A stretch of 64,000 bases of DNA. It comes from Branchiostoma floridae. Lineage: Eukaryota > Chordata > Leptocardii > Amphioxiformes > Branchiostomatidae. This document shows positions 2,323 through 41,022 of the stretch, one piece after another. The stretch covers positions 11,730,059-11,794,058 of the forward strand of contig NC_049995.1 in NCBI RefSeq assembly GCF_000003815.2, given 5' to 3'. The translations under genes were made by a program, and so were the position numbers. Each line of letters begins with the position of its first letter. The first letter of the stretch is position 1. Below the pieces are notes generated by a model. The model was not told where the DNA came from and did no database searches. It saw only the letters and a program-made list of their open reading frames with translations.

Positions 2323-5300
2323 ATGGCTGCCGCAGACCAAGAAAGCCACGTCAGCGCAGTTCGTCCTCGTTCCTACCAAGACGAGAGCTATCTGCAAGGG
2401 TTTCTTGGAACTGTGGGCGACTTACAGAAGGCTGGGGAACTGCAGGATGTCGTCCTTGAAGTCGAGGGCCGGCGGTTTCCCTGCCATCGGCTTGTTCTGT
2501 CCGCGGCCAGTCCCTACTTCAGGGCCATGTTTACAAGTGACATGGCGGAAAGCCGGCAGAATACGGTTGTTTTACAGGTAAGGTCGTGCCGGTCGGCATG
2601 ACGTGTGGTTAGAATAGAGCGATCTAGGGGGTATTCAAGGATTCTACGTGTCATAGAGAACATGTAGAAAAGCGAAACCCTTTGTTACCTAAACCAACAA
2701 ACACTGTAAATGCAGAAATGTTCGCGGTCGATTAATGTTCGCGGTTTTCGCGGTGACCACTTCGCGGTGACCACTTCACCGCGAACTTAAAACCAACGCG
2801 AATATTTTTCTATAGTGGTATTAGCATCTTATGACAAGAACAGTCAGCTACAGGAGAGTACTCCTCTCTCAACTGAAGATGGTATCCAGGTATCCAGGTG
2901 TGAATGAATGAATGGTTGGTTTATCAAAACGTGAAACTTTGCAGCCAAAAGCTGAATTACGTATACGGCACAATACAAGTATGGCAAAACAACATCTTAC
3001 AACTTAATCATAAATTTTACAACATCGATATGAAAGTATACACTTTATGTAGTTAAAGGTTGAACATTATTACGTTACTAGTATATTGTTTTGTAGGGTT
3101 TGGATGAAGGCGTGTTTGGAGATATCCTGAGTTACATCTACTCGGGAACCCTCCATGTGTCCCTGGACAAAGTGCAGCCCCTGTACCAAGCAGCTGACCT
3201 CCTCCAACTGGACTATTTGAGAGACACCTGCAGCAGCTACATGGCCATGAACGTGGAGCGCTCCCACTATATGGACTTGTACAAGTTTGCTGATGTCTTC
3301 TCTGTGAACGTTGTCCGTAAAGCTTGTCTGCAGTTGATCCGTAGAAACTTTGTTGAGGTGGGTCTAATGTGTTGGTAGTAGCTCACTCAATTCAATTCCC
3401 TGCCATACAAGGTTTGAATGAGTTTTAAACGTATTACAAATCTTTTGCATATTACACTTTTTATATTTCTGCTCGTTCAAGCATATTGTCAGACGTTATT
3501 TTAGAGGGAATCATCCACATTTTTTATTTTGTGAACATGTTGTCCACAGCATAATATAGAAGAGTAAAGCATGATATAGAAGAGTAAAGCCCATGCCTTA
3601 TTTGTAACTATTAGTATTAACCAATTTAAAGTTGTTCCCCATAGTACCACACATGTACATGTACCCTTGATTTCCAAAGGTTGCCTCCAGCGAGGAGTTC
3701 TACAGCCTGAGTATAAACCAGCTGACTGAGGTCATCAGCCATGATGAGCTGGATGTTAAAGAGGAGATAACAGTGTGGGAGGCTGTGGTGAGATGGGTGC
3801 AGTACAACAGGGAGGACAGGTGGACATCCTTCAATTATGAATATTGATGTATACCTTGTGTTTACATCATTAACCCTATGTATGACTGCGACGTCTTACT
3901 TCTTTATTGACTGATTAAAGTGGCTTCTCTCAGTTTGTGTATGTGATTCAATATGCCTGACTTCTATGTAGTAATGTAAAGAACGGTTAAATTGCCCCCA
4001 TGCCCCCTACCCTTTACCCTACAGACTGCACCATCTACCCAGCATCTTCCCTCACATCCGCTTCAACCTGCTGACCTCAGAGAACATAGCAGCCATCTTG
4101 GAACACCCTCTGGTTAAAGAGGTTCCGGGGAGTTCTGAGGTTATCAGGAATGTAATACAGAAATGGAAGCCCTACCTGAAACCGAGGCTTGGGATGACAA
4201 CAGAAATGGTTATGCTGTCCAATACTGAGTCAGTACATACTTCTTCTTCGTATAAATTTCTAGGTCTACAATCCTTGTGCAGGGTTATTCTTCATGTTGA
4301 GGTCCTGTTTTACGCATTTTCAGAGTCTTACTCTAGCCTCTAGTAGTGCTCTGTATCAACTCATACTGAATCCCATTTCTCTGTGGCTACAAGATTAGAT
4401 CGAAATATGATAGTAGTAGTTGTTGTGATTTCGGCCTTATTTCTGAGGAAAAGCTACGAGTTTCCATTCCAGTTTCATGAAAGAATAATTTGTGTTCTAT
4501 CCTATTCAGTTCGAAAGAGCTCCTTTTCATGAACCCTCTGGAAGGAAGGTACATCAGCTGCAGTTACAAACCAGAGGACTTCCCTTGCATCACAGACGTG
4601 ACAGTCACCAGAGATAACAACATCTACATCCTGACTCGTAAGGGAAAGAGTAACGACGAGTTGTCCGTACTGAAGTACAACTATGCGGGGAATGTGTGGG
4701 AACATGCTGGTATGTCCTCAGTATCTAAATCGCTGAGACTGGACAACGATTCCACATGGTATGATGAGCACCTTGTTGAAGTTGATGGGAGTTTGTACTA
4801 TCTTGCTGCCGATGTAGAGGATGACAGTGGATTGGTGTGGATGAGAAAGTACAACTGGCACACAGACCAGTGGCAGGAGTGTGCACAGCTTCAACTTGAC
4901 AATACGGAATACGACTACAGTGAAGCATTGGCCTGCAGTTCACACCTCTATTTCCTGACGAGCTTAGAGATGCATTGCTATGACCCAAGCCAGGACTGTT
5001 GGTGCAAGCGGAGCCCAGCATCAGACCCCGATCTTGACATTTATTCAGCCGTTACCATGGGAACAGAGCTGTTCTGCGCCGATTTTGACTTCAAACAGAT
5101 CATGGTGTATGACACAGAGTCAGACCGCTGGCAGAAGCTGCAAGGCTGGCCGAACAAAGGAAATCGTAAAATGAAAATGTGTATTTCTCCCTGTCTTTTC
5201 GTAATGGACAACCGACTCCACATATGGTTAAGCTGTGTCAATGACGAGGATGATAAGGAAGAACTTCTCGTATATGTGTATGACAGGTCTGCTGATGTCT

Positions 5301-5434
5301 GGAGGGACTTGAATGCAACTCTGCCTAATAAGACATATTTCTCACCTGGCCCTATGTGCCCTGTGGCACGTATGTACCTACCATACCTTAAAGGGGCACA
5401 AAAACATATCACGTCTTACGCTTATAAACGTTAA
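2323..5434 (+). CDS. BTB-BACK-kelch protein, KLHL copy B (possible splice defect)
   Basis: Exons: 2323-2577, 3097-3357, 3680-3819, 4025-about 4216 or 4232, 4510-5434. Exons 1-2 give the BTB fold, with MAE at residues 74-76 where Cullin-3-binding BTBs have their phi-x-E motif. Exons 2-4 give BACK, and exon 5 gives kelch blades (LKYNYAGNVWEHAG, RKYNWHTDQWQEC, YDPSQDCWCK, VYDTESDRWQKL, YDRSADVWRDL). The protein ends ITSYAYKR, like copy F. The obvious exon-4 donor (GTACAT after 4232) leaves phase 0, but the exon-5 acceptor needs phase 2, so the normal join would shift frame. A weak GT at 4217 would keep frame (590 aa). The likely cause is a few bases lost relative to copy F (GCGTATGTAC). The family role is substrate adaptor of CUL3 E3 ligases. 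AATAAA lies at 6028-6033. Confidence 0.82.
2711..2812. repeat. GTTCGCGGT inverted-repeat MITE fragment
   Basis: Intron 1 of copy B contains ATGTTCGCGGT motifs facing ACCGCGAACTTAAAA, a short inverted repeat with an internal 17-bp direct repeat of TTCGCGGTGACCAC. It looks like a small non-autonomous DNA element. A related ATCGCGAACGTAAAATCACC piece is seen near 12,660. Confidence 0.45.
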
Positions 5435-10300: not shown

Positions 10301-12055
10301 ATTAAAACAAAATAGACTCAAATCACTTTCCCTACCATGTTCCCTACAGACTTCAACGCCTACCCAGCATCCTCCCTCACATCCACTTCAACCTGCTGAC
10401 CTCAGCCGACAAGAATTCTATCTTAGAACACCCCTTGGTCAGGGCGGTTCCTGGGAGTTCTAAGGCCATCAGGAGTCTGGCCAAGAAGACTTCCAACCTG
10501 AAGAAGAGATCTGGAATGGAGACAGTGGAAATGGCTCTGCTTTTCTCTGAAAGGTGTGAAACTAAGCACATGCATATGTCGTTCTCCCATATCAATAAAT
10601 GTCTGGAAAAGGTATATTTTCTTTGATGGCAAGTGCAATTTTAGCCCCCCCCCCCCCGGTTACCGAGAGAGATATTGCTCCTTTTAATTGATGAAAGGCA
10701 ATGCATGCATTTTTCTCTGTCTTGTAAATTGCTGCATATGAAGTTAATGGCAGTCTTTATCTTGTCCATCTTACTTTCTGTAAACTTTCTGCATACCCAA
10801 ATTGCATTGCATGAGGATTGCATATCACACCATATTTGTACTGAATGGAATAAGTTGTATATCTGGACAGATTTTTTTTTGGTTCACTTATTTACTAACG
10901 GCACAATAGAGGTGGTGTTTAGGTATTTTTAATTTTCACCTGAGTGGAGTGAGGAAATTATAATGTAAAGTGCTTTTCCCAAGGGAATAGAATAACAACC
11001 TTTCATGGATCGAACTCAAAGCCCCCAGGTTCCGAGTCAACAACCACAAGGCCGCCAAGGCACATTATGTTACTGCTTTGCATGCAACTTAACATGTGTT
11101 TAATACTTCCATGTCCATGTGTTATGCCCTCCACAGCAGAGACGAGATGCTGTGGATTGACCCGGAGAAAGGGAAGTACATCAGATGTCACAACGACATA
11201 CATCCAATTACAGGAGCAGTAACCAGTGATAATGACATCTACATTCTGGGACTTGAGACTTACGATTTACGCAAAAAGTATGCCCTGTTCAAGTACAACC
11301 ATGCGGAGAACAAGTGGGAACGAAAGTCTTCACTACGATGGTATGACCCGGACACTGATGACGACCTATTCGAGTTCCTTATTGATGTCGATGGACAACT
11401 TTTTTACCTCATTGTGACATTCTCAATGATAGAGTTGAAGAAGTACAACCAGCACACAAACACGTGGCACAACTGTTCCACACCTCAGCATGATGAATGG
11501 TTTGAGTGGTGTGTGGCAGTGTCCTGCAATCGGCGCATCTATCTCTTCACACACGCTGTCTTCACACAGACAGAAGTACTGAGTTACAACCCAAGGGCAG
11601 ACCAGTGGTGCAGGAAACCCAAGTCAGACCATATTCTTGATTTCCAGAACGCTGTTGCCATGGGAACAAAGATCTTCTGTACAGATTCAGACTTCGAACA
11701 GACAATAGTGTACGACACCAAGACAAACAAATGGTTCAGGCTTCCAGGATGGCTGAAGTCGCCGCTGAGCACAAATAAGGAAATCGAACACATCACTCTC
11801 TTTGCACTCCAAAACAAGCTGCATGCAGTTGTAGATCATTCTATAAACTCAAGTTCAGATGGGTTGATAAGAGTCCAGCAGGTGTTCCTGTATGACAGGT
11901 ATGAAGGTATTTGGAAAGAGTTGTCTGTCCTGCCCGAAGGACCTTGGGCAGTATATCATCCGATGGTCCCAGTGGCTCATATGTGCCTACCGTATCTGAA
12001 TGCCCGAAGTCATGCCACACACACACAGGTTACAGCAATCACAGAGGGCACATGA
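7348..12055 (+). CDS. BTB-BACK-kelch protein, KLHL copy C
   Basis: Exons 7348-7602, 8232-8492, 9985-10124, 10350-10553 and 11137-12055 join in phases 0,0,2,2 to give 592 aa. All introns are GT-AG. BTB spans about residues 35-140 and contains MAE at 74-76; BACK is about 143-285. The kelch exon has LFKYNHAENKWERK, KKYNQHTNTWHNC, YNPRADQWCRKP, VYDTKTNKWFRL and LYDRYEGIWKEL blades. Exon 1 is nearly identical to copy B even at silent sites, yet the kelch exon is the most divergent of the cluster and lacks the LPNK-Y motif of its neighbours. The exon-3 acceptor gives FSCSEEF in place of VASSEEF. The intron before exon 5 is short of the acceptor by a SINE-like insert. AATAAA lies at 12,509. Family role: probable CUL3 substrate adaptor. 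Confidence 0.92.
8653..9534. mobile_element. TTAA-flanked non-autonomous element in intron 2 of copy C
   Basis: TTAA at 8649-8652 and 9535-9538 flank an 882-bp segment with short inverted ends (GGCCTATGA on the left, TCACAGGCC on the right). TTAA target duplications are typical of piggyBac (also Kolobok) transposons. No transposase is visible, so it would be non-autonomous. Internally it holds a GTTCGAACGTTCGAAC palindrome near 9188. Confidence 0.5.
10997..11066 (-). mobile_element. tRNA-like SINE piece
   Basis: On the minus strand, TGGCGGCCTTGTGG resembles a Pol III A box. About 30 bases on, GAGTTCGATCC resembles a B box. The spacing fits a tRNA-derived SINE head. It sits about 70 bp upstream of the exon-5 acceptor of copy C. 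No acceptor-stem pairing was established, so a functional tRNA is unlikely. Confidence 0.45.
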
Positions 12056-14060: not shown

Positions 14061-17000
14061 ATGGCCGCCGCAGACCAAGAACTCCACGCCAGCGCAGTTC
14101 TTCCCCGTTCCTACCAAGACGAGAGCTATCTGCGCGGGTTTCTTGGAACTGTGTGTGACTTACAGAAGGATGGGGTGCTGCAGGATGTCGTCCTTGAAGT
14201 CGAGGGCCGGCGGTTTTCCTGTCATCGGCTTGTTCTGTCCGCGGCCAGCCCTTACTTCAGGGCCATGTTTACAAGTGACATGGCGGAAAGTCGGCAGAAG
14301 ACGGTTGTTTTACATGTAGGGTTACTGTGATGTGTGGTTAGAATTGAGCGATCTATAGGGGACATTCATGGATTCTACGTATCATAGGGGAAAACCCATT
14401 TTTACCAAAATATAAAAATCTCATTTTCTGTGTCCCTCGCTATGCCCCCTCCCCACTTACTGACGTCTTTGGTATGTAGGGTCAAAGGTCAACATAGTGG
14501 GTCGCAAATTACAATCATGAGCGTATGTTTTTAACAAAAAAATAGTTTCTTATAGTTAATGTCAACATTTCGTTATATGTTCAAGACGTAGTAGAGGTAG
14601 GGTTACCGTGATGTGTGGTTAGAATTGATAGAGTAAAACAGAAAACTTTAAAAGTCCCTACGTATCGTAGAGAACTGTTATTCATTGTTAATCAACCCAA
14701 AGCAAGCAAGGCCCTATCCACTTACTAGTACTGACCTCTTTGTTATTAGCCCTTTCACAGAGGTTACTACTAGCACGCATGTGCGGGAAATAGGTATCCT
14801 AGGAAATTCTAATGTCAAAGGAGCACTTAGTCATTTCGACCAACAATGTCCGGAACGTAATGGCAACGCAAAATGGCGAAATGTTTCCGTTCTGGGCCCT
14901 TCACCTTTGACATACCACCCAGAATTCCTGTCGCCCGCACATCCGTAGTGAATTCTGTGATTTAGCTAATTCATGAGCTAAAAATCAACTTGGAAAAATC
15001 ATTATGAGCATGTATCTTTAGCTAAAATAGAATAGGTTACAGTTATTAGAAACAGATCAGGAACAAGCATGTGAAATAAGAAAAGTAGAGCGTAATCAGC
15101 GTATACAGATAGAATAGCTAAATAGGATAAACATTTGATCTTCATTTGGTAATCAAAGTAATACGTGATATTTTCTCCCTGATAACAATAGGTTAAATGG
15201 AAAACGTTTGGACATTGTTACATTACTTTGTTTTGCAGTGTTTGGATGCAAGCGTTTTGGGAGAGATCCTAAGTTACATCTACTCAGGAACCATCCATGT
15301 GTCCATGGACAAAGTGCAGCCCCTGTACCAGGCAGCCGACCTCCTCCAACTGGACTATGTGAGAGACAAATGCAACAGCTACATGGCCATGAACGTGGAG
15401 CGCTCCACCTGTGTGGACCTGTACATGTTTGCTGATGTCTTCTCTCTGAACAATGTCTTGATACTTTGCCTGCAGTCGATCCATAGAAACTTTGTTGAGG
15501 TGAGTCTATTATTTTAGAAGGTTACGTTTTCTCTCCCAGAAAGGGTTTGGAATCTGTCAAGAAGAGTTTTCATTCATTAGATTCTTAGCTGTTATAGAAG
15601 AATAGAGCAAACTTTTGATGCTATTTTTTTTTTCAGTTTTCACAAACCGTTACCAATGAAACTATATATGTACATGAACTCTGTACCCCATGCACAGGTT
15701 GCCTCCAGCGAGGAGTTTTGCAGCCTGAGTGTGAATCAGCTGACTGAGATCATCAGCCACGATGAGCTGGATGTTACAGAGGAGATAACAGTGTGGGAGG
15801 CTGTGGTGAGATGGGTGCAGCATAGTAAGAAGGAGAGGTATGTTTTGATGTCTACCTTGTCTCTACTTCATTGCATAATTGACTGCAGAAACTTTCTTCT
15901 TTTGGCAAATGGCATTTGCTACTTTTAAGGTTTGTTATCCCAGAAATCTTTGCAGCAAGGTAAAAAATAATGCCATCATCTATCCTGTAGACTGCACCAC
16001 CTACCCAGCATCCTCCCTAACATCCGCTTTAACCAGTTGACCTCAGACGACACGGCAGCCATTTTAGAACACCCCCTTGTTAAGGAGGATTCTGGGATTT
16101 CTGAGGTCATCAATAATTTGATACAGAAAGGGAACCCCGCCCTGAAGTCGAGGCATGGGGTTACCATGGAGATGGCTCTGCTATACAAGTTAGAGCATAG
16201 GTTGGTAAATACTTTTTCTTTATCATTATATATTCGTTGGATTTTCTACGACTTGAACAATTATCTATACTAAAGCAACTTTTTGTAAGACCACAAGACA
16301 AAATTTCGTGACAGTGTATGTTGTGGGTTTGGTCTTATCCGTAAAGAAAAGGCATGACTTTGCTGTCCAGTTTCATTTGAGTTTGCAATTTATTTTATTC
16401 CCCTTCAGTTCAAATGAGCTCCTCTTCATGAACCCTCGGGAAGGGAAGTACATCAGCTGCAGCTATAAAGCTGAAGACTTTCCTGGTTACACAGCCACCA
16501 CAGTCACCGGTGATAACAGCATTTACATCCTGAAAACAAAAAAAGAATCAGAGGGAGAGGAACAGCTTTCTCTCTTCAAGTACAACCATGTAAAGAATGT
16601 TTGGGAACTTGCAGATTTGTCCTCAACATCCAGGGAACCGGGAACCCACATCAAGTACCTTTTTGAAGTTGATCAGATTTTGTATTACATGTATATCATT
16701 ATGGTTGATTATTACGATCCATCTCGAAAAGTTCCGTTGAGAAAGTACAACCAGCACACAAACCAGTGGCAGGAGTGTTCACAGCTACGACCGAAGGACA
16801 GTAGATACCACGGTGACTGTGCAGCATTGTCCTGTGGCGCACACCTCTATTTCCTCACAAGCACGGAAGTGCATCGCTACGACCCAATGGAGGACAGGTG
16901 GAGCAAGCGGACCCCACCGGGGATCATTGATGTAGTCCATACAGCTGTTGCCATGGGAACAGAGATTTTCTGTACAGATCTCTACTTCGATAAGACCATG

Positions 17001-17298
17001 GTGTACGACACAGAGTCAGACCGCTGGCAGAAACTTCAGTTTGCCGCCCCCTGAACACGATTATATGGATGTTGATCCTAGTCTTTTCGTAATGGAGAAC
17101 CAGCTGCACATATTCTTAAGATATATTAGTGACTTTGAGGAAGAAGAAGAAGAAGACAAATATCGGGTATATGTGTATGATAGGTCGGATGACGCCTGGA
17201 GAGACTTGAAGGCTACTCTGCCCAATGAGAGTTATACAACGTGTGCCTGCTATTGCCCTGTTGCACGTATCAGTCTACCATATCTTAATGGTACATGA
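14061..17298 (+). pseudogene. BTB-BACK-kelch gene, KLHL copy D, frameshifted in kelch exon
   Basis: Exons 14061-14315, 15239-15499, 15698-15837, 15991-16200 and 16409-17054 join in phases 0,0,2,2 and stop at TGA 17052-17054, giving 503 aa. Beyond about 17,038 the kelch coding continues in the next frame to 17,298 (PPEHDYMDVDPSLFVMENQL, YDRSDDAWRDL, SLPYLNGT). Alignment with copy E (CGATGCTTGCC against CAGT--TTGCC) shows a 2-nt deletion. The truncated product would lack about the last 80 residues, opening the propeller, so loss of function is likely; an assembly error is the alternative. The exon-1 donor is TACAT|GTAGGG, where the other copies have TACAG|GTAGG. AATAAA lies at 18,347. Confidence 0.85.
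14747..14960. mobile_element. AGCCCTTTCACAG MITE, copy 1 (in intron 1 of copy D)
   Basis: Starts AGCCCTTTCACAGAGGTTAC and ends with a decayed inverted copy (AATTCTGTGA). It shares GGAATTCTA...ATGTCAAAGG-type blocks with the better-preserved element at 54,087-54,316. No coding capacity. Confidence 0.5.
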
Positions 17299-22000: not shown

Positions 22001-23633
22001 AATGTAATGTAATTATGACGTCATCAATTTGACCTTATTGGCTGGAACCATGAAAAGGCGGTATTCCCAGAAAACTTGAAGGCATGCTACAAAAATGTAA
22101 CCGCAAGTGCAGATGACAGTCTCTATCTAAGATACCAGTTGGGCTCCACCATCTTATATCTACCTCCTTGAATGTTCAAAACTATATTATTGGCGATAAA
22201 TAATCGCGAAAGACAACGGAAATAGACTAAGAATGTTCATTTAGACGTTTTTTATGAAAAAATACCAGTTAGTTACAACTTATTAGAGATAATAAGCTAG
22301 TTATTCTTGATCTGTTCACACCGTCCGCCATCTTGGATTTTTGCCCGTGACATCATTACATCAGCATAATTTATGCAAAATTAATTACGAAAGATATTCT
22401 AGATAATGTGCGATGTAATATACGTAAGAAAATAGCAGTGATATAGCAAATAAACGTGAAAATACATTGTTAGAACCGAAATTTGCGATTTTCGTCAAAA
22501 GTGTCTGTCAATAAACGGTTGCCATGGCAACAAGAAAAATTGAATATTTTCAAACATTGTAAAATTCTTCCCAACTAATTTTAGGAAAAGTCACCAAGTT
22601 TGTTTGGTGACTCTAGCGTAAGCCGTTCTTGGTGACTCTAGCGTATGCCGTTCTGGCGTTATGCGACATGAAAGTTCATGGACCTCAAAAGCCTATCCCC
22701 AATCTGAATAGGGTTACGTTTCTTCAAGTCCATATTTATTTACAATTTCCGATGTGTTTTTCCTTCTCTAGTGGCATTGAGCTCCTCTTCATAAACCCTC
22801 GGGGAGGTAAGTTCATCAGCTGCACTTACAGCCCAGAAGACCTTCCTCGTCCTTCACACATGACAGTCACCAGTGATAACGAGATCTATATCCTGACAAG
22901 AGAGGAATCAGAGGTTGAAACTCAGCTGTCCCTGTTTAAGTACAACCCTGCTAAAAACGTGTGGGAAGATGCAGGTGTGCCCTCAATATCTAGAGAGCGG
23001 CATCAGAAGTGGTCTTTCTTCAAGGAACTGCTCTTTGAAGTTGATGGGACTTTGTATTACGTTCCTGTTGATGAAGATCGGTCTTTGGTGCAGATGAAAA
23101 AGTACAACCGGCACACGAAACAGTGGCTGGAGTGTTCACCGTTGCACTTCGACGATTTTGAAGACGGTGATGACCCCCCTCATGCACTGTCTTGCGGTTC
23201 ACACATCTATCTCTTAGCAAACGAGGTCATGCATCGCTACGACCCGAGCCTGGACCAGTGGAGCAAGCGAACCCCACCGATGGACATGCCTGAACTCTCT
23301 ACAGCCGTCGCCATGGGAACAGAGATTTTCTGCGCAGACGTTGACTTTACTGATACCATGGTGTACGACACAGAGTCAGACCGCTGGCAGAAACTGCGAT
23401 GCTTGCCAAACGCAGAAGACCTTGATATTGATGATCTTCCCTATCTTTTCGTCTTGGAGAATCAGCTCCACATATTGGTAACCGGTGCATACAACGCACC
23501 TGTGGTATATGCGTATGACAGGTCTGCTGATTCCTGGAAAGACGTAGCCACCCTGCCCAATGAGAGATATCATGCGTATGGTTGTTCTTCCCCTGTGGCA
23601 CGTATATACCTACCATATCTTAAGGAGGCATAA
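19077..23633 (+). CDS. BTB-BACK-kelch protein, KLHL copy E
   Basis: Exons 19077-19322, 19860-20120, 21124-21263, 21409-21618 and 22772-23633 join in phases 0,0,2,2 to give 572 aa. Exon 1 is 9 nt shorter than in its paralogues, losing three residues after MAAAD. BTB is about residues 32-137, with MAE in the phi-x-E position; BACK follows. Kelch blades are FKYNPAKNVWEDAG, KKYNRHTKQWLEC, RYDPSLDQWSKRT, VYDTESDRWQKL and AYDRSADSWKDV. It ends LPYLKEA. Intron 2 holds a GGTACC MITE and intron 4 a piggyBac-like element, which explains the long gene span. The exon-4 donor GTTGGT is non-optimal but in phase. AATAAA lies at 24,306. Probable CUL3 adaptor by family. Confidence 0.92.
20304..20855. mobile_element. 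MITE with GGTACCGGTAC blocks, second copy
   Basis: Starts AGGGGTGGGTTACGGTACAG and ends TACCAGTACCCGGCCCC. It shares ACCGGTCCA, CCTGGACCTGA and ACCGGTAC blocks with the element at 6,485-6,939. It contains a G run near 20,477 and the strong hairpin at 20,704-20,812. No coding capacity. Confidence 0.55.
20704..20812. repeat. Long near-perfect hairpin inside the MITE
   Basis: Arms of about 50 bp run from TTTTTCTGGACCGGTCGAAG to CTTCGACTGGTCCAGAAAA around a GTACAC-GG-GTGTAC centre, with few mismatches. Each arm contains GGTTTGGTACCAGTACCGGT. Confidence 0.7.
21837..22713. mobile_element. piggyBac-like non-autonomous element, copy 2
   Basis: Inverted ends CCCTATTCAGA and TCTGAATAGGG, with TTAA to the left and TTAC to the right, in intron 4 of KLHL copy E. 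The interior is related to the element at 12,966-13,938. Near the right end, GGTGACTCTAGCGTA-GCCGTTCT is present twice in tandem (22,604-22,660). No transposase ORF. Confidence 0.6.
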
Positions 23634-24645: not shown

Positions 24646-27600
24646 ATGGCTGCCGCAGACCACGAAACCCACTCCAGCGCAGTTCGGTCTCGTTCCTACA
24701 AAGACGAGAGCTATCTACACGGTTTTCTTGGAACTGTGTGTGACTTACAGAAGGATGGGGTACTGCAGGATGTCGTCCTTGAAACCAAGGGCCGGCGGTT
24801 TCCCTGCCATCGGCTTGTTCTGTCCGCGGCCAGCCCCTACTTCAGGGCCATGTTTACAAGTGACATGGCGGAAAGTTGGCAGAAGACGGTTGTTTTACAG
24901 GTAGGGTTGGCGTGACGTGTAGCTAAAATAGAGTGAAGCAATGGCCGTTCAAATGTGCTATGTATTATAGAGAACACATCAAGCAGTAATTTAAAACTCT
25001 TGGTTAAACAAAACCAACAAATGTTTAACTTCCCCTCAATATATTCCTCGCTATGCCCCCCTCCCCACTAACTGACCTCTTTAGTATCTAGAGTTAAAGG
25101 TCAACTTTGCGGGCCACTCGTAATCATCATGAGCATCTGTCAACTTTGCGNNNNNNNNNNNNNNNNNNNNNNNNNNNNNNNNNNNNNNNNNNNNNNNNNN
25201 NNNNNNNNNNNNNNNNNNNNNNNNNNNNNNNNNNNNNNNNNNNNNNNNNNNNNNNNNNNNNNNNNNNNNNNNNNNNNNNNNNNNNNNNNNNNNNNNNNNN
25301 NNNNNNNNNNNNNNNNNNNNNNNNNNNNNNNNNNNNNNNNNNNNNNNNNNNNNAAGAATTGTATGTTGTACATGTATTGTTTTGCAGGGTATGGATGCAT
25401 GCATGTTTGGGGAGATCCTGAGTTACATCTACTCAGGAACCATCCATGTCTCCATGGACAAAGTGCAGCCCCTGTACCAGGCAGCCGACCTCCTCCAACT
25501 GGACTATGTGAGAGACACCTGCTGCAGCTACATGGCCATGAACGTGGAGCGCTCCACCTGTGTGGACCTGTACAAGTTTGCTGATGTCTCGTCTGTGGAC
25601 ATTGTCCGGAAATGTTGTCTGCAGTGGATCACCAGAAACTTTACTGAGGTTAGTCTTCATATTGGGTGGGACAATAAGCATGTTCAGGGTTCCAACTACG
25701 CATGTGTAGTGACAGGAATGCAGCTGATATGTCATGGGCTAAGGCCCCTAAGAATTTGCACATCAAGACATATTCTCAAGGAGAACTTTTACAAGCCAGA
25801 TCTTCAACTTTGACATATTATCCATAGTTTCTGTTGAAGCACATGCATACTGGGAACCATGGATGGGCTTATTGTCTAAAATAGCAATCGCATTTTTACT
25901 AGACTGTATGAGATAAAAGTGAATTACATGGAAATGAAGCTTGCAATGGAAAATAGATTCAGCATAACAAGAAATATTGTTAAAAGAAGACATTTTGAAC
26001 AATTTGTTCAAAGTCAGTTAAGCTAGCCATGTTTGTTACCATGTTTGTGAACAAAGGTTATGTGTGACCTCAGTGTAATATAACCAACTGCTGCTGTGCC
26101 TTGTGCCTACATACTTTGTGTTTTTGCTAAACTGGCTGTACATGTACAGATGCAAAGTAATCACTTCCCTTTTGATTGGACTTTAATCATATGAAAATGT
26201 TCTTGTATATCGAAACTGGATTAAGATACACATACCTATACCTCCACAGGTTGCCTCCAGCGAGGACTTTTTCAGCCTGAGTGTGAATCAGCTGACTGAG
26301 ATCATCAGCCATGATGAGCTGGATGTTAAAGAGGAGACAACAGTGTGGGAGGCTGTGGTGAGATGGGTGCAGCACAGCAGGGAGGGCAGGTGGGTGTCAG
26401 TGTTCTTCTGTTGGTACATAACTGTCTTTTATTGAGATGTAAGCTTGATTTTTCATCAAGCTGATAAGATACCAGACAATCAGCTACATCTGCCTCTACC
26501 CTGTTCCCTACAGACTCGACCATCTACCCAGCATCCTCCCTCACATCCGATTCAACCTGCTGACCTCAGACGACACGGCAGCCATCTTGGAACACCCCCT
26601 GGTCAATGAGGATCCTGGGAGTTCTGAGGTGATGAGGAATGTGGTACAGACAGGGAACTTCAACATGAAACCAAGGCTTGGGATGACCATGGAAATGGTT
26701 ATGCTGTCTGATATATCTGACACAGCGTATGTACATAATTCTTCGCTTCACTCTCTATGTCGAGAATAATCTTAGCAAAATGACAGTCCATACTTTGTGT
26801 TCCTGCAATACTAACTTTCACATTATCAGTCATGTAGGTAACCTCTGCATCTAATTCAAACTTATACTTGCTAAGCACCTTTATCCTAGACCACACGGCG
26901 TGATTTAATGAATGCCATTAGTGCATGTTGTGATACGTATACGTTTCCTAATCGGTTTTATTGACATTCTTTGATGTATTTGATTCAGGTCAGATGACCT
27001 CCTCTACATGAACCCACAGAATGGGATGTACATCACCTGCAGTTACGACTACCTTCCTGATTCCATAACTATGACAGTTACAAATGATAACAACATTTAC
27101 AAGCTCGAAAATGAGCAGGAGGATTATTATCAGTTGTCAATGTTCAAGTACAACCATGCAGAGAACGTATTTGAACATGCTGGTATGTCTTCAGTATCTA
27201 TGTTCCGGAGAGAGTACTCAGGTTTATCATCTCACTGGGATCATTTCCTTGTTGAAGTTGACCAGATTCTATATTACGGTGCTGCTGATCTGGGAGAAGG
27301 CAGTGCATCGGTGCGGATGAGAAAGTACAATCGACACTCGGACAAATGGGAGCAATGTTCACAGCTGAAGCTTGAAGGAACTTGGCGCTTCAGTACGGCA
27401 TTGTCTTGTGGTCCGCACCTCTATATCCTCATGGACTCAGCAATGTATCGCTACGACCCACGCCAGGACTGTTGGTGCAAGCGGGCTCCACCGAATATCA
27501 CAGCTCGTTACTCAACTTTCACAACCGTTGCCATGGGAACAGAGATTTTCTGCTCAGATTTTGACTTCACTCAGACTATGGTGTACGACTCAGAATCAGA

Positions 27601-27904
27601 CCGCTGGCAGAAACTGCAAGGCTGGCCAAACCTAGAAAACCGTAGTGTCTATTGTACTCCGAGTCTTTTTGTGCTGGAAAACGAGCTGCACATATTGTTG
27701 GAAGTCTATGGCAAACAAGGTCCATCAACAGACTATCTCGTATATGTGTACGACAGGGCTACCGATGCCTGGAGAGACTTGAAGGCCATTCTGCCTAATA
27801 AGGAGTATTATGCACCTAATCCCATGTGCCCCGTGGTACGTATGTACCTACCATACCTTAAGGGGGCGCAAAAACACATCACGTCTTACGCTTATCAGCG
27901 TTAA
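24646..27904 (+). CDS. BTB-BACK-kelch protein, KLHL copy F
   Basis: Exons 24646-24900, 25388-25648, 26250-26389, 26514-26726 and 26989-27904 join in phases 0,0,2,2 to give 594 aa. Residues 1-85 (exon 1) and 86-172 (exon 2) form BTB and the start of BACK, with MAE at 74-76; exons 3-4 finish BACK. The kelch exon has FKYNHAENVFEHAG, RKYNRHSDKWEQC, RYDPRQDCWCKRA, VYDSESDRWQKL and YDRATDAWRDL blades. It ends ITSYAYQR, so its closest relative here is copy B, not its neighbour E. Intron 1 contains an assembly gap (25,151-25,353) but no coding part is lost. AATAAA lies at 28,329. Probable CUL3 adaptor by family. Confidence 0.93.
25151..25353. other. Assembly gap (203 N)
   Basis: Run of N inside intron 1 of KLHL copy F. 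Confidence 1.
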
Positions 27905-35289: not shown

Positions 35290-35964
35290 ATGGCAGAGGC
35301 AGGTGCTGGGTCTCAGAACGTCTGTGATGGGTCTCCTACCGAAGGTTCATGCGACCGGGATACAAGTAAAACCAAGGACCAGCCAACAGCGAGCAAAGCC
35401 AGCTCGGTTAGTCAAACGAAAGCAAACACCCGTGAGAAATCCTACATGTGTGGAGAGTGTGGGTACAGGACATCTTGGAAGTCTAGTTTATCCCGACATA
35501 TGTTAACTCATACAGACGTAAAACCCTACAAGTGTCACAAGTGTGACTATTCTACAGCAAAGAAATGTCAGTTGGATTATCATTTAGCCAAACACACTGG
35601 TAACAAACCCTACATGTGCGGGGAGTGTGGCTATAGGACAGCTCAGAAGTCTAATTTATCCCAACATATGAGAACTCATATCGGTAAAAAACCTTACAAG
35701 TGTGACCAGTGTGACTATTCTACAGCAAGAAAATGTTATTTGGACCAACATCTAGCCAAACACACAGGTGAGAAGCCCTACATGTGTGGGGAATGTGGGT
35801 ACAGGACAGTTCGAAAATCTAACCTATACATACACATGAGAACTCATACAGGTTACAAGCCCTACAAGTGTGACCAGTGTGACTATTCTGCAGCACTGAA
35901 ATGCACTTTGGACCAACATCTAGCCAAACATACTGGTGACAAACACTACATGAGTAGTATATAG
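35290..35964 (+). pseudogene. C2H2 zinc-finger gene I, 5' part, cut by a transposon
   Basis: From ATG 35,290 the frame gives a 50-residue head (no domain recognised) and six C2H2 fingers alternating between two types: CGECGYRT...HMRTH and CDQCDYST...HLAKH. At 35,953 the palindromic element begins. The frame then reads only SSI and stops at 35,964, inside the element. The last native codons are TAC ATG (35,947-35,952), which is also the target duplication. The lost 3' part is at 40,861-41,022. C2H2 arrays of this kind bind DNA in the nucleus. A six-finger truncated protein could still be made. Confidence 0.9.
35947..35952. repeat. Target-site duplication TACATG, left
   Basis: The same 6 bp is found at 40,861-40,866, immediately outside the right end of the palindromic element. 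Confidence 0.85.
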
Positions 35965-36004
35965 TCAGCACGCTGACTATCATTATTCAGGAGCAGGAAG
36001 GAGC

Positions 36005-36202
36005 AGGTCAAAGGTCACACGCTGACTATCATTATTCAGGCGGTGCAGGTCAAAGGTCAGATATTATTTATTCAGGCGCAGGTCAGAGGTCAGATATAAT
36101 TTATTCAGGCGCAGGTCAGGGGTCAGATATCATTTATTCAAGCGCTGGTCATGGGGTCAGAGGTCACATATCATTAATTCAGGTGGAGCAGGTCAGGGGT
36201 CA
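36005..36202 (+). promoter_or_regulatory. Six AGGTCA-type direct repeats (DR1), left arm
   Basis: Paired half-sites with a 1-nt gap start at 36,005, 36,047, 36,080, 36,113, 36,154 and 36,190: AGGTCA-A-AGGTCA (twice), AGGTCA-G-AGGTCA, AGGTCA-G-GGGTCA (twice) and GGGTCA-G-AGGTCA. They lie in degenerate repeats with ATTATTCAGG-type linkers. DR1 is the known binding site of RXR, HNF4 and COUP-TF nuclear receptors; binding here is untested. Confidence 0.75.
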
Positions 36203-36339
36203 GATATCAAATATTCAGGTGGAGAAAGGTAACTATGACAACCGCCACGCCCCCAAATGAACCTCCCCCTCCCCATTTGTGAAAGCCATGTCCTTATTTG
36301 GCCTGGTTCTAATTCTCTATCGTATAAGATAAAGATGAC

Positions 36340-37690
36340 AATGCTCCGGAGTAAGTGAGTAAGTATATTTGTTGTAAGTATGTATATTTGTCCTGTACGT
36401 ACGAACATATACCATCTATATGTACATGCAGTGAAACATTGCTTGGGAGTAACTATACGTGTTGCTCCGGAGTAAAATAAACTGCTCCGGAGTATGCTCC
36501 GGAGTAAGTGAGTAAGTATATTTGTTGTAATAAGTTAGTATATTTGGCATGTACGTACGAACATATGCCATCTATATGTACATGCAATGAACCATTGCTT
36601 TGGAGTAGCTATACGTGTTGCTCCGGAGTACAAAAAACACTGCTCCGGAGTAAAATAAACTGCTCCGGAGTAAAATAAAACTGCTCCGGAGTAAAATAAA
36701 ACTGCTCCGGAGCATTCCGGAGTAAGTGAGTAAGTATATCTGTTGTAAGTAAGTATATTTGTCATGTACATACGAACATATCCCATCTATATGTACATTC
36801 AGTGAAACATTACTTTGGAGTATCTATACGTGTTGCTCCGGAGTAAAAACACTGCTCCGGAGTAAAAATACTGCTCTGGAGTATGCTCCGGAGTAAATGA
36901 GTAAGTATATTTGTTGTAATAAGTTAGTATATTTGTCATGTACGTACGAACATATACCATCTATATGTACATGCAGTAGATCATTGCTTTGGAGTAGCTA
37001 TACGTGTTGCTCCGGAGTACAAAAAACACTGCTCCGGAGTAAAATAAACCGCTCCGGAGTAAAAACACTGCTCCGGAGTAAAAATACTGCTCCGGAGTAT
37101 GCTCCGGAGGAAATGAGTAAGTATATTTGTTGTAATAAGTTAGTATATTTATCATGTACGTACGAACATATACCATCTACATGTACATGCAGTGAAACAT
37201 TACTTTGGAGTAGCTATACGTGTTGCTCCGGAGTAAAATAAAGTGCTCCGGAGTAAAATAAACTGCTCCGGAGTATGCTCCGGAGTAAATGAGTAAGTAT
37301 ATTTCTTATAGGTAAGCAGGTTTGTCATGTTCGTACGGCCATCTATATGTACATGCAGTGAATCATTGCTTTCGAGTAGCTATACGTGTTGCTCCGGAGT
37401 AAAATAAACTGCTCCGGAGTAAAATAAACTGCTCCGGAGTATGCTCCGGAGTAAATGAGTAAGTATATTTCTTATAGGTAAGCAGGTTTGTCATGTTCGT
37501 ACGGCCATCTATATGTACATGCAGTGAATCATTGCTTTCGAGTAGCTATACGTGTTGCTCCGGAGTAAAATAAACTGCTCCGGAGTATGCTCCGGAGTAA
37601 ATGAGTAAATATATTTGTTATAGGTAAGCATATTTTGTCATGTACGTACGGACATATGCCATCTATATGTACATGCAGGAAATCATTGCT
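36340..37690. repeat. CTCCGGAG higher-order satellite, left arm
   Basis: About eight units of 150-220 bp. Each has GAGTAAGTATATTTGTTGTA, a CATGTACGTACGAACATAT block, CATCTATATGTACATGCAGT and a run of 2-5 GCTCCGGAGTAAAATAAACT subrepeats. CTCCGGAG is an 8-bp palindrome. Unit starts are near 36,357, 36,507, 36,728, 36,898, 37,114, 37,288, 37,456 and 37,606. Confidence 0.85.
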
Positions 37691-37915
37691 TTGTAGTAAC
37701 CTTGTACGTGTCTGTTATGTAGGCATATATCAACACAACACAAAATACACTTGTGTACGGTGATCCTGTTTATTTCTTAACACTTTACTATCACTTGACG
37801 GCGATCAAAATTGTATTACGGAATTCATAACCAACGCACATGTCGTCCTATGTGTCAAACATGGTATCACATTAGGAAAGAAAAATTGTACTGCAAGCAA
37901 TATGGCGACCTCACA

Positions 37916-38551
37916 TTACTTCAGGACGAGGTAACCATATTTTTTCATCAATGTCTGTTCTGGGACCCAGTTCTTGCTGTGTACAATCTCATTACTGTAA
38001 CGAGGCAACGCAGCGAACTCTATCAGATAAAACTTTTTGCCAGCGCGCTTCGTCTGTTTGATGACACGTTGTGGAACATCGCCTGGCTGGTGAGGTAGTG
38101 CGATGGACCAGTCTCGATAGAGTGTCCACTCCTCCTCGTCACCGCTGTGGTAGCCGCTGTCGTAGCCGGTACATTCACTTTCATCAGATGATACCGTCCC
38201 GGAGGACACATCTGTCCCTGTATCACTCTCGGAACCACTTTGGTCGCTGTCGGTTTCTGATGTGGAGTCTCCCTGCTCGGAGCCCATCACAGATTCGGCG
38301 TCTGAGACGCTTTCTTCATCTTGTGACGCCGTCGAATCCCCATCTTCGGAACCAACCGTGTCCGTATCGTGTTCAGATGACACGTCGGAGTCGTCGAAAA
38401 CATCGCGCTCTCGGTAAGAGCCCGTCTCGGCATCAACGACGACTTCTCCCGAGGCAACACCTGACTTGTCTCGGTGTTTTCTTTCCAGATGACGCTCGAG
38501 GTTGAACGCACGATCAAATTCCCGATCACAAATTTCGCAGACATGAGGCAT
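37916..38551 (-). CDS. C2H2-acidic-chromo-like protein, left-arm copy
   Basis: A 211-aa protein starting at the ATG just before PHVCEICDREF; an in-frame ATG at 38,617 would add 22 residues. Residues 4-26 are a C2H2 finger (C-x2-C-x12-H-x4-H). Residues about 30-140 are rich in D, E, S and T, with repeated SD/SE sites suited to CK2. The C-terminus (GKKFYLIEFAALP...NWVPEQTL) has the spacing of a chromodomain: basic residues, YL-phi-phi, then W-x-P-E. A DNA- and chromatin-binding role is inference. It lies inside the palindromic element and reads outward. It is near-identical to the right-arm copy. Confidence 0.75.
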   Translation of the reverse strand: MPHVCEICDREFDRAFNLERHLERKHRDKSGVASGEVVVDAETGSYRERDVFDDSDVSSEHDTDTVGSEDGDSTASQDEESVSDAESVMGSEQGDSTSETDSDQSGSESDTGTDVSSGTVSSDESECTGYDSGYHSGDEEEWTLYRDWSIALPHQPGDVPQRVIKQTKRAGKKFYLIEFAALPRYSNEIVHSKNWVPEQTLMKKYGYLVLK

Positions 38552-38679
38552 ACTTTTTGTTCGGTGGATAGAAGGGAAATGATAAGGTATCAATGTGCAC
38601 ACATATATTTGTCGCACATGAAAGTTTTTAAGGGATCGTACGTTTATCTCGTATACACCCTGGATGCATCTACGTTTCA

Positions 38680-39018
38680 NNNNNNNNNNNNNNNNNNNNN
38701 NNNNNNNNNNNNNNNNNNNNNNNNNNNNNNNNNNNNNNNNNNNNNNNNNNNNNNNNNNNNNNNNNNNNNNNNNNNNNNNNNNNNNNNNNNNNNNNNNNNN
38801 NNNNNNNNNNNNNNNNNNNNNNNNNNNNNNNNNNNNNNNNNNNNNNNNNNNNNNNNNNNNNNNNNNNNNNNNNNNNNNNNNNNNNNNNNNNNNNNNNNNN
38901 NNNNNNNNNNNNNNNNNNNNNNNNNNNNNNNNNNNNNNNNNNNNNNNNNNNNNNNNNNNNNNNNNNNNNNNNNNNNNNNNNNNNNNNNNNNNNNNNNNNN
39001 NNNNNNNNNNNNNNNNNN
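38680..39018. other. Assembly gap (339 N) at the palindrome centre
   Basis: Run of N between the two arms. The arms still match up to the left edge (ACGTAGATGCAT), so the gap marks the symmetry centre. Confidence 1.
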
Positions 39019-39186
39019 TTCATTCACGACAACAATATTTCAATACCACGTATGCAGTTACGGCATACGTAGATGCATGATGTATACGAGATAAACGTAC
39101 GATCCCTTAAAAACTTTCATGTGCGACAAATATATGTGTGCACATTGATACCTTATCATTTCCCTTCTGTCCACCGAACAAAAAGT

Positions 39187-39822
39187 ATGCCTCATGTCTG
39201 CGAAATTTGTGATCGGGAATTTGATCGTGCGTTCAACCTCGAGCGTCATCTGGAAAGAAAACACCGAGACAAGTCAGGTGTTGCCTCGGGAGAAGTCGTC
39301 GTTGATGCCGAGACGGGCTCTTACCGAGAGCGCGATGTTTTCGACGACTCCGACGTGTCATCTGAACACGATACGGACACGGTTGGTTCCGAAGATGGGG
39401 ATTCGACGGCGTCACAAGATGAAGAAAGCGTCTCAGACGCCGAATCTGTGATGGGCTCCGAGCAGGGAGACTCCACATCAGAAACCGACAGCGACCAAAG
39501 TGGTTCCGAGAGTGATACAGGGACAGATGTGTCCTCCGGGACGGTATCATCTGATGAAAGTGAATGTACCGGCTACGACAGCGGCTACCACAGCGGTGAC
39601 GAGGAGGAGTGGACACTCTATCGAGACTGGTCCATCGCACTACCTCACCAGCCAGGCGATGTTCCACAACGTGTCATCAAACAGACGAAGCGCGCTGGCA
39701 AAAAGTTTTATCTGATAGAGTTCGCTGCGTTGCCTCGTTACAGTAATGAGATTGTACACAGCAAGAACTGGGTCCCAGAACAGACATTGATGAAAAAATA
39801 TGGTTACCTCGTCCTGAAGTAA
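39187..39822 (+). CDS. C2H2-acidic-chromo-like protein, right-arm copy
   Basis: The mirror copy of the gene at 37,916-38,551 has the same length (211 aa) and the same visible protein sequence. The only residue change I see is upstream of the chosen ATG (SVHRTKS against SIHRTKS). An upstream in-frame ATG at 39,073 is possible but lies in the poorly conserved centre. Both genes run away from the centre, so one central promoter could drive both. Keeping two identical open copies suggests recent insertion or conversion between arms. Confidence 0.75.
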   Translation: MPHVCEICDREFDRAFNLERHLERKHRDKSGVASGEVVVDAETGSYRERDVFDDSDVSSEHDTDTVGSEDGDSTASQDEESVSDAESVMGSEQGDSTSETDSDQSGSESDTGTDVSSGTVSSDESECTGYDSGYHSGDEEEWTLYRDWSIALPHQPGDVPQRVIKQTKRAGKKFYLIEFAALPRYSNEIVHSKNWVPEQTLMKKYGYLVLK

Positions 39823-40039
39823 TGTGAGGTCGCCATATTGCTTGCAGTACAATTTTTCTTTCCTAATGTGATACCATGTTTGACACATAGGACGACATGT
39901 GCGTTGGTTATGAATTCCGTAATACAATTTTGATCGCCGTCAAGTGATAGTAAAGTGTTAAGAAATAAACAGGATCACCGTACACAAGTGTATTTTGTGT
40001 TGTGTTGATATATGCCTACATAACAGACACGTACAAGGT

Positions 40040-40472
40040 TACTACAAAGCAATGATTTCCTGCATGTACATATAGATGGCATATGTCCGTACGTACATGA
40101 CAAAATATGCTTACCTATAACAAATATATTTACTCATTTACTCCGGAGCATACTCCGGAGCAGTTTATTTTACTCCGGAGCAACACGTATAGCTACTCGA
40201 AAGCAATGATTCACTGCATGTACATATAGATGGCCGTACGAACATGACAAATCTGCTTACCTATAAGAAATATACTTACTCATTTACTCCGGAGCATACT
40301 CCGGAGCAGTTTATTTTACTCCGGAGCAGTGTTTTTTGTACTCCGGAGCAACACGTATAGCTACTCCCAAGCAATGTTTCACTGCATGTACATATAGATG
40401 GTATATGTTCGTACGTACAGGACAAATATACATACTTACAACAAATATACTTACTCACTTACTCCGGAGCAT
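40040..40472. repeat. CTCCGGAG higher-order satellite, right arm
   Basis: The same higher-order unit as at 36,340-37,690, inverted, but only about three units. This accounts for most of the length difference between arms. Confidence 0.85.
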
Positions 40473-40610
40473 TGTCATCTTTATCTTATACGATAGAGAA
40501 TTAGAACCAGGCCAAATAAGGACATGGCTTTCACAAATGGGGAGGGGGAGGTTCATTTGGGGGCGTGGCGGTTGTCATAGTTACCTTTCTCCACCTGAAT
40601 ATTTGATATC

Positions 40611-40808
40611 TGACCCCTGACCTGCTCCACCTGAATTAATGATATGTGACCTCTGACCCCATGACCAGCGCTTGAATAAATGATATCTGACCCCTGACCT
40701 GCGCCTGAATAAATTATATCTGACCTCTGACCTGCGCCTGAATAAATAATATCTGACCTTTGACCTGCACCGCCTGAATAATGATAGTCAGCGTGTGACC
40801 TTTGACCT
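40611..40808 (-). promoter_or_regulatory. Six AGGTCA-type direct repeats (DR1), right arm
   Basis: Mirror of the left array, with TGACCYYTGACCT motifs. It is the same 198-bp length as 36,005-36,202 and has six pairs, all with 1-nt spacing. Confidence 0.75.
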
Positions 40809-40860
40809 GCTCCTTCCTGCTCCTGAATAATGATAGTCAGCGTGCTGACTATATACTACT

Positions 40861-41022
40861 TACATGTGTGGGGAGTGTGGGTACAGGTCAACTCTGAAGT
40901 CTTCCTTATCTCGACATATGAGAACTCATACCGGTGAAAAACCCTACAAATGTGACCAGTGTGACTATTCTGCAGCAGAGAAAGGCAATTTGGACCGACA
41001 TCTTAGACAACACAAACAGTAA
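40861..41022 (+). pseudogene. C2H2 zinc-finger gene I, 3' part
   Basis: Begins with the duplicated TACATG and continues directly with TGT GGG GAG TGT: two fingers (CGECGYRSTLKSSLSRHMRTH-type and CDQCDYSAAEKGNLDRH-type), then HLRQHKQ and TAA at 41,020-41,022. Joined to TAC ATG at 35,947 it is in frame and completes an 8-finger protein. As it stands it has no start of its own. Confidence 0.9.

Follow-up and report, generated by a model that had tools for sequence, protein, structure and literature searches.

Fold-back transposons (for example, Tetris of Drosophila virilis) have long inverted arms with tandem repeats and little unique sequence at the centre, and among protein-primed linear replicons, derivatives with one end doubled in inverted orientation are known as symmetric defective adenovirus genomes and as hairpin or inverted-dimer derivatives of yeast killer plasmids. 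Here, a stretch of 64,000 nucleotides from the amphioxus Branchiostoma floridae (contig C17, positions 11730059-11794058; called 'the window') was analysed, in which a palindromic mobile element splits a C2H2 zinc-finger gene, and the element was compared with these systems, with Mavericks (also named Polintons), and with two further systems described for inverted dimers and for 6-bp targets. In the parts of the published account cited here, vertebrate Mavericks have (AGT)2//(ACT)2 ends, terminal repeats of 46-1,447 bp, 6-bp duplications and a protein-primed DNA polymerase B (PolB), and no Maverick viral particles had been observed at its writing (PMC8097293, Barreat and Katzourakis 2021). Origin-dependent inverted-repeat amplification (ODIRA) in yeast is presented as a replication error giving an inverted dimeric molecule that is later able to integrate (PMC4689423, in the sections cited), and Ginger2, in the cited part of PMC2836005, has TGTNR ends, targets of 6 bp that are AT-rich (RTATAY), and an integrase akin to the Polinton one. 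A direct view of Maverick replication was not met in the literature, and no palindromic Maverick appeared in the titles and abstract beginnings that were searched, a search in which most subscription journals lay outside the coverage and long result lists were seen in part.

The window element is like the Mavericks in the cited part of PMC8097293 in its (AGT)2//(ACT)2 ends, inverted terminal repeats and 6-bp duplication, but its length of approximately 4.6 kb is unlike the 12.7-24.6 kb given there, and it is nearly all palindrome, with a gene (here called ZFC) in both arms and no match to integrase, PolB, RNR2 or Bcl-2. Long inverted arms with tandem sub-repeats are shared with fold-back elements as classically defined, from which the window element differs in its Maverick ends, its intact and conserved arm gene and its 6-bp duplication, so that its descent is not independent of Mavericks. 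Unlike the adenovirus and killer-plasmid derivatives, which are free DNA, the amphioxus palindromes belong to a mobile element of an animal and sit in its chromosomes. ODIRA, in contrast to the window element, involves chromosomal origins, short inverted repeats and homologous integration, and terminal-protein priming and target duplication are absent from the account given in the sections of PMC4689423 cited. The AGTAGT ends and TACATG target of the window element also differ from the TGTNR ends and RTATAY targets of Ginger2. Judged from its sequence, the element is a non-autonomous, palindromic Maverick derivative whose ends are shared with complete members of the family; that it arose by copy-back during protein-primed replication, was integrated in trans and has had its arms re-copied from each other is, as a joint explanation, probable. 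Established within this explanation are the shared ends, the 6-bp duplications, the palindromes of both Maverick ends, the conserved ZFC gene and a paralogous empty site.

The element occupies positions 35953-40860 of the window, with the left terminus AGTAGTATATAGTC... and the right terminus ...GACTATATACTACT, and is flanked by TACATG at 35947-35952 and 40861-40866. Its features, and those of the gene that it splits, were placed as follows (window coordinates):

35290..35952, forward strand: host C2H2 finger gene, 5' part; the frame continues for 12 bases inside the element, to a stop at 35964
35947..35952, no strand: target site duplication TACATG, left copy
35953..38679, forward strand: left arm
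35953..36343, forward strand: left terminal repeat core (~391 bp), common to complete Mavericks; starts with (AGT)2 and has ~33-bp sub-repeats
36341..37692, forward strand: left-arm tandem repeats, unit ~146-216 bp, 8 marker-word copies
37916..38551, reverse strand: ZFC left copy, 211 codons (C2H2 finger, acidic middle, possibly chromo-like C-terminus), reading outward
38680..39018, no strand: 339-N assembly gap in the centre of the palindrome; a 4-base overlap against the sibling L045 indicates no missing sequence
39019..40860, reverse strand: right arm
39187..39822, forward strand: ZFC right copy, identical to the left copy (636/636 bases)
40046..40480, reverse strand: right-arm tandem repeats, 3 marker-word copies
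40470..40860, reverse strand: right terminal repeat core, inverted copy; ends with (ACT)2
40861..40866, no strand: target site duplication TACATG, right copy
40867..41022, forward strand: host finger gene, 3' part, in frame with the 5' part over the joined flanks

The frame of the split finger gene is open across the joined flanks when one TACATG is kept, with a stop near 41020. An earlier note, made from the letters of the window, had described a mobile element with AG...CT ends of the Polinton type and a clean duplication of 6 bp (TACATG on both sides), inserted in a finger gene that is in frame once the element and one TACATG are removed; all of this was confirmed, the coordinates of the element and its duplication being correct to the base. 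The empty site ...CACTACATGTGTGGGG... that it had proposed was matched in the genome (513.4 Mb in 431 contigs) by a paralogue and not by an allele: C17:11251774-11252310, 0.51 Mb away, is 96% identical to the joined flanks (positions 1-537 of the 700-base query), runs uninterrupted through the junction, where it reads AAACACTACATGTGTGGG (121 bases fetched), and has TGTGGGC where the window has TGTGGGG. As an empty site in a paralogue, it shows a precise insertion rather than a second allele. A target preference for finger genes found no support, as among the 14 elements scanned on both flanks (the window element and 13 others) finger motifs within 600 bp were seen only at the window.

The two ends of the element are exact inverted copies for 499 bases, with the first mismatch at base 500. 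The outer arm parts were 86.2% identical over a 906-column alignment, a value lowered by unequal repeat numbers, and the inner arms 97.7% identical over a 1410-column alignment (19 mismatches). As the marker word of the tandem unit occurs in 8 copies in the left arm versus 3 in the right, the arms are similar but unequal in length. The 'exact inverted copies' of the earlier note thus apply to the outer 499 bp, the whole arms being only near-identical with differing repeat numbers, whereas its statement that the element is almost all arm stands: the palindrome centre is approximately 60 bp long, lies just upstream of ZFC, and shares sequence with the centres of the ZFC palindromes L045 and L036 (L036 by eye). 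When the flanks of the central gap were aligned to L045, a sibling without a gap, the left side ended at base 65 and the right side started at base 62 of the same stretch, and because the two sides overlap by 4 bases the gap probably hides nothing; the run of 339 N would be a placeholder and the real element would measure approximately 4.57 kb. The suggestion that the two ends belong to a large element with a hidden interior is not upheld by a central gap without detectable hidden sequence.

A genome search with the first 448 bp of the element matched the ends of complete Mavericks, and inverted matches paired 2.4-18 kb apart at many loci (202 candidates, 40 of them scored, with ends paired manually). 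The window ends are 87-89% identical to those of a complete, gapless 18.2-kb Maverick at C9:16355111-16373289 (L009/L010), which has Bcl-2-like and ribonucleotide reductase (RNR) small chain accessory genes at its two ends. In this Maverick, Bcl-2, an integrase with rve and Chromo domains and the RNR small chain exceeded the Pfam cut-offs, a Pox_A32-like ATPase scored 25.1 bits (cut-off 22.8) and an adenain-like protease fell just below its cut-off (20.7 versus 21.3 bits). PolB was found inside it with a family-specific query; a genome search with PF03175 gave 13 matches, none of which was the PolB of this Maverick family, and the PolB frames of L028 matched zf-C2H2 and DNA_pol_B_2 (21.7 bits, below the cut-off of 25.8). 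Two candidate capsid frames had no Pfam match. L012 and L013 carry genes similar to those of the C9 Maverick (by eye), and the genome holds 12 copies of the integrase of this family at 97% or more and 11 copies of its PolB at 95% or more across the whole query. L013 (C7:19091400-19101000) is itself a rearranged Maverick, a nested or recombined copy with a second terminal end and Bcl-2 inside and its protease-to-integrase block reversed.

The ends of approximately 390 bp that the window element shares with complete Mavericks of the same genome run counter to a further statement of the earlier note, namely that the element may represent an undescribed fold-back family; its observation was sound and extends beyond a single insertion, and the reading as an unrelated fold-back family falls. 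The 6-bp duplication was exact in 15 of the 16 elements with both ends read, with 5 of 6 bases matching in the remaining one (the window element, 13 scanned elements of which 12 were exact, the one at C11:16.76 Mb and, by eye, the one at C11:9.39 Mb). The AGT motif served to place the ends, and of the element at C158:1539 kb a single end was read. Most element ends were AGTAGT/ACTACT. One extra AGT/ACT was present at one end in three elements (C9 18 kb, C7 and C11:9.39 Mb), the C9 Maverick having (AGT)3 at its left and (ACT)2 at its right end, and such unequal counts could be a trace left by the jumping-back step of protein priming. Integrase, PolB, RNR2 and Bcl-2 gave no match within the window element on the genome maps, and no packaging ATPase, protease or capsid frame was recognisable in its frame listing, these three not having been mapped genome-wide.

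ZFC, which was missing from the earlier account of the arms, is intact in each of them and is the only long frame in the frame listing of the window element. Its C2H2 finger scored 23.4 bits (Pfam cut-off 25.2), and this N-terminal finger was the sole credible match in Pfam and PDB sequence searches; similarity to the chromodomain of the Maverick integrase was not significant by BLASTP (31% over 35 residues, E 0.12). In an AlphaFold2 model (pLDDT 59 on average and 70-77 in parts of the C-terminus) the C-terminus is predicted to form strands and a helix, and chromo or chromoshadow chains made up 15 of the top 20 Foldseek rows, which is suggestive only of a chromo-like C-terminus. The genome search gave 102 ZFC matches, 42 of them spanning query positions 1-211 without a stop (hand count), which merge to 89 copies at 69 loci (fragments included, and one locus on contig C158 counted twice). 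The median ratio of nonsynonymous to synonymous substitution rates (dN/dS) was 0.32 (interquartile range 0.24-0.42) in 359 of the 378 pairs of 28 frames, pairs that are not independent and include three truncated frames, and in 12 disjoint pairs the differences at codon positions 1, 2 and 3 numbered 43, 37 and 76 (chi-square p 0.0002). By these substitution patterns ZFC is under purifying selection. For the one ZFC pair that came from the two arms of a single element the corresponding differences were 5, 4 and 1, as would fit decay after insertion. Among six diverged copies that were fetched, four were full length (L063, L066, L067 and L068), L064 stops at 140 codons and L065 is without an intact frame.

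Protein searches for ZFC returned 41 proteins by sequence and 52 with a profile. The best matches were from Branchiostoma floridae (98%), and no named match lay outside amphioxus, the named ones being from B. floridae, B. belcheri and B. lanceolatum and the others unnamed ENA entries. In two B. belcheri proteins (P0042 and P0043) the gene models join a piece of an AlkB-like dioxygenase to ZFC, and the elements of that species may carry an AlkB gene beside ZFC. Many B. belcheri copies are named 'Crystallin, lambda 1', 'dbp-8-like' or 'EVI1-A-like' in the database, which look like mis-annotated transposon genes.

Relative to the integrase-bearing Mavericks, 67 of the 69 ZFC loci lie more than 20 kb from mapped integrase copies or on other contigs, and two lie approximately 20 kb from an integrase, but past the end of that element. 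Four diverged copies (at 4 of the 69 loci) were found 0.4-3.5 kb from a diverged PolB; on C13 the order is PolB, ZFC and then, 0.85 kb beyond ZFC, the end-like sequence CTACTATACTACT, this element having been read at that end only. On C11, a 61% relative is present as a single copy. The element around it is 4.4 kb long, has terminal repeats of 771 bp (99.35% identical) and the duplication CACGTA, and the pieces beside the gene had no detectable nucleotide similarity to the window arm. Judged by these positions, ZFC seems to belong, as an accessory gene, to the right end of a related Maverick, and to travel in elements without integrase as well. At C5:7444106-7452250, a diverged and broken PolB is present as an inverted pair adjoining a ZFC copy at 74%, which may represent a palindrome of a further lineage of Mavericks. 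One truncated ZFC copy in a C2H2 finger gene is held twice on contig C158 (L026, C158:1394000, and L027, C158:32400), in opposite orientation and with matching host flank, a segmental or haplotype duplication or a scaffolding error. It was rejected as a second finger-gene insertion, being the same locus in inverse orientation, and was left out of the duplication and arm comparisons; it still makes up two of the 69 loci.

Palindromes of both Maverick ends were found elsewhere in the genome. RNR2 and the start of PolB are in both arms of L017 (3831 columns, 99.87%), Bcl-2 is in both arms of L024 (gapless, 98.3%), and ZFC is duplicated in whole or in part in L018, L019, L020, L031, L034, L045, L052 and L057, with best self-inverted alignments of 97.5-99.84% (97.5% in the gapless ZFC-end palindrome L045). 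L024, L019 and L045 are gapless palindromes; L023 has 832-bp arms at 100%, with ZFC seen in just one of them, next to a gap. As different gene content means different turning points, several independent origins of palindromes are indicated. Adjacent copies of the same gene within 12 kb formed 42 inverted versus 4 direct pairs. The inverted pairs are not independent, coming from 33 distinct loci, and the direct ones from 4 loci, one of which is also among the inverted (hand count); duplications and full arms were checked at part of these loci. The rows counted were 60 of 74 for RNR2, 45 of 60 for Bcl-2, 18 of 91 for integrase, 19 of 55 for PolB and 102 of 102 for ZFC, those dropped being weak or overlapping fragments and, for integrase, also other element families. 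Among the inverted pairs, all 13 of RNR2 pointed outward and all 10 of Bcl-2 inward, in agreement with the complete C9 element; of the 17 ZFC pairs, 16 pointed outward, the direction that ZFC has on C13. Identity of ZFC within an element was 98.4-100% in nine of nine elements, and between elements it had a median of 95.5% (range 91.0-99.7%; 520 pairs of 34 sequences). Together, the some thirty palindromic loci outside the window suggest that fold-back derivatives have arisen from Mavericks again and again and are carried along by the complete element. At C6:25538715-25549427, two integrase copies that belong to a second family of Mavericks (67% to family A) and have one stop each lie inverted, 8.3 kb apart; they probably mark a palindromic derivative of that second family.

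In the proposed origin of the window element, the right-hand Maverick end, comprising the terminal repeat, the tandem repeats and ZFC, would have come to be present twice, head to head, around the centre of approximately 60 bp. During strand-displacement, protein-primed copying of a linear Maverick, the growing strand would switch to its own nascent copy (copy-back), and the product would be a molecule bearing the same end twice, with two replication origins and two integrase sites kept. Since these are kept, copying by the Maverick PolB and insertion by the Maverick integrase could take place in trans; the only hints of mobilisation by a complete Maverick would be the shared ends and the length of the duplication. 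If the arms were re-copied from each other in every cycle, they would resemble each other more closely than copies from separate elements do. For ZFC, a finger protein whose end may be chromo-like, binding to element DNA or to host chromatin is probable, to the benefit of the element that carries it.

Several observations weigh against this explanation. The inverted parts are only 93.0-95.3% alike in L021 (95.3%), L022 (94.4%, ends only), L025 (94.7%) and L040 (93.0%), and because these four elements have inverted parts no more alike than separate elements, near-identical arms are not universal; L022, on C6, is also not palindromic past its ends. An inverted ZFC pair was seen at only 17 of the 69 loci of this gapped assembly, the rest being single, fragments or cut by gaps. 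In L020, ZFC is joined with the Bcl-2 of the other end, for which an extra recombination is needed. The right end of L017 reads ACTTCT rather than ACTACT, and L061/L062, taken from around another copy of ZFC, showed no end motif. On the map, none of the 12 near-identical Mavericks with an integrase contains ZFC (the C9 element alone having been seen whole and gapless), so that an immediate parent with both these ends and ZFC was not identified. The chromo-like fold comes from a low-confidence model, with no Foldseek match at E<=0.001 and no family match. Finally, the replication and transposition steps are read from the structure of the sequences, and the copy-back structure is one that the joining of two sister ends would leave as well.

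Such joining or homologous recombination of two inverted ends, from sister molecules or a concatemer and without copy-back, would act on the same element and yield a structurally identical product. The arm tandem repeats provide homology for it, chimeric arms (ZFC with pieces of Bcl-2 or RNR2) demonstrate recombination, and the four elements at 93.0-95.3% agree with it; but independent copies would give dissimilar arms, and the within-element identity of ZFC, set against the between-element median, makes this origin unlikely. Another reading is a complete Maverick whose terminal repeats are very long and whose interior has been lost in the 339-N gap. In its favour, the gap lies exactly at the centre, and complete Mavericks with these ends do exist. 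It is very improbable, as the gap sides overlap on L045, as gapless palindromes occur in L024, L019 and L045, and as no integrase, PolB, RNR2 or Bcl-2 match falls in the interval.

The inverted arms could also be an assembly artefact, created when one arm was scaffolded twice. The gap at the centre speaks for this, as does contig C158, on which a single truncated copy occurs twice together with its host flank. The window arms, however, differ in repeat number and by substitutions, the outer junctions are in different host sequence that forms one frame, and gapless palindromes are present elsewhere, which leaves an artefact extremely improbable. Just as small a chance is given to two separate single-ended insertions, or to an inverted duplication of the chromosome after insertion, in favour of which there is no specific point, as a single 6-bp duplication brackets the whole palindrome in the window and in its siblings and the paralogue is uninterrupted, with no other change at the site. 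A fold-back family unrelated to Polintons shares with the classic elements the long inverted arms and tandem sub-repeats, but ends 87-89% identical to those of a complete Maverick, with the same end motif and duplication length, reduce its probability to almost nothing.

Elsewhere in the window, similar open frames, kelch-type-like by eye, were located upstream of finger genes at 4529-5434, 11111-12055, 16428-17054, 22668-23633 and 27008-27904.

The explanation by copy-back, trans integration and arm re-copying can be extended, tentatively and with somewhat less than even confidence, to the proposal that amphioxus Mavericks routinely yield copy-back genomes, in the manner of defective viruses, and that one lineage has become a gene-bearing palindromic satellite, propagated with a common centre and with arms renewed from each other at every round of replication, its finger-chromo gene ZFC being under selection for aiding the satellite's spread on a helper Maverick. 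If true, amphioxus chromosomes would hold a fossil record of the replication of a free, linear, protein-primed animal Maverick. Palindromes of either end with 6-bp scars are the expected residue of a linear genome copied from both ends by strand displacement, and the replication model of Mavericks would thereby be testable from sequence. A conserved gene at 69 loci, none of them inside an integrase-bearing element, suggests satellite-helper relations among animal transposons.

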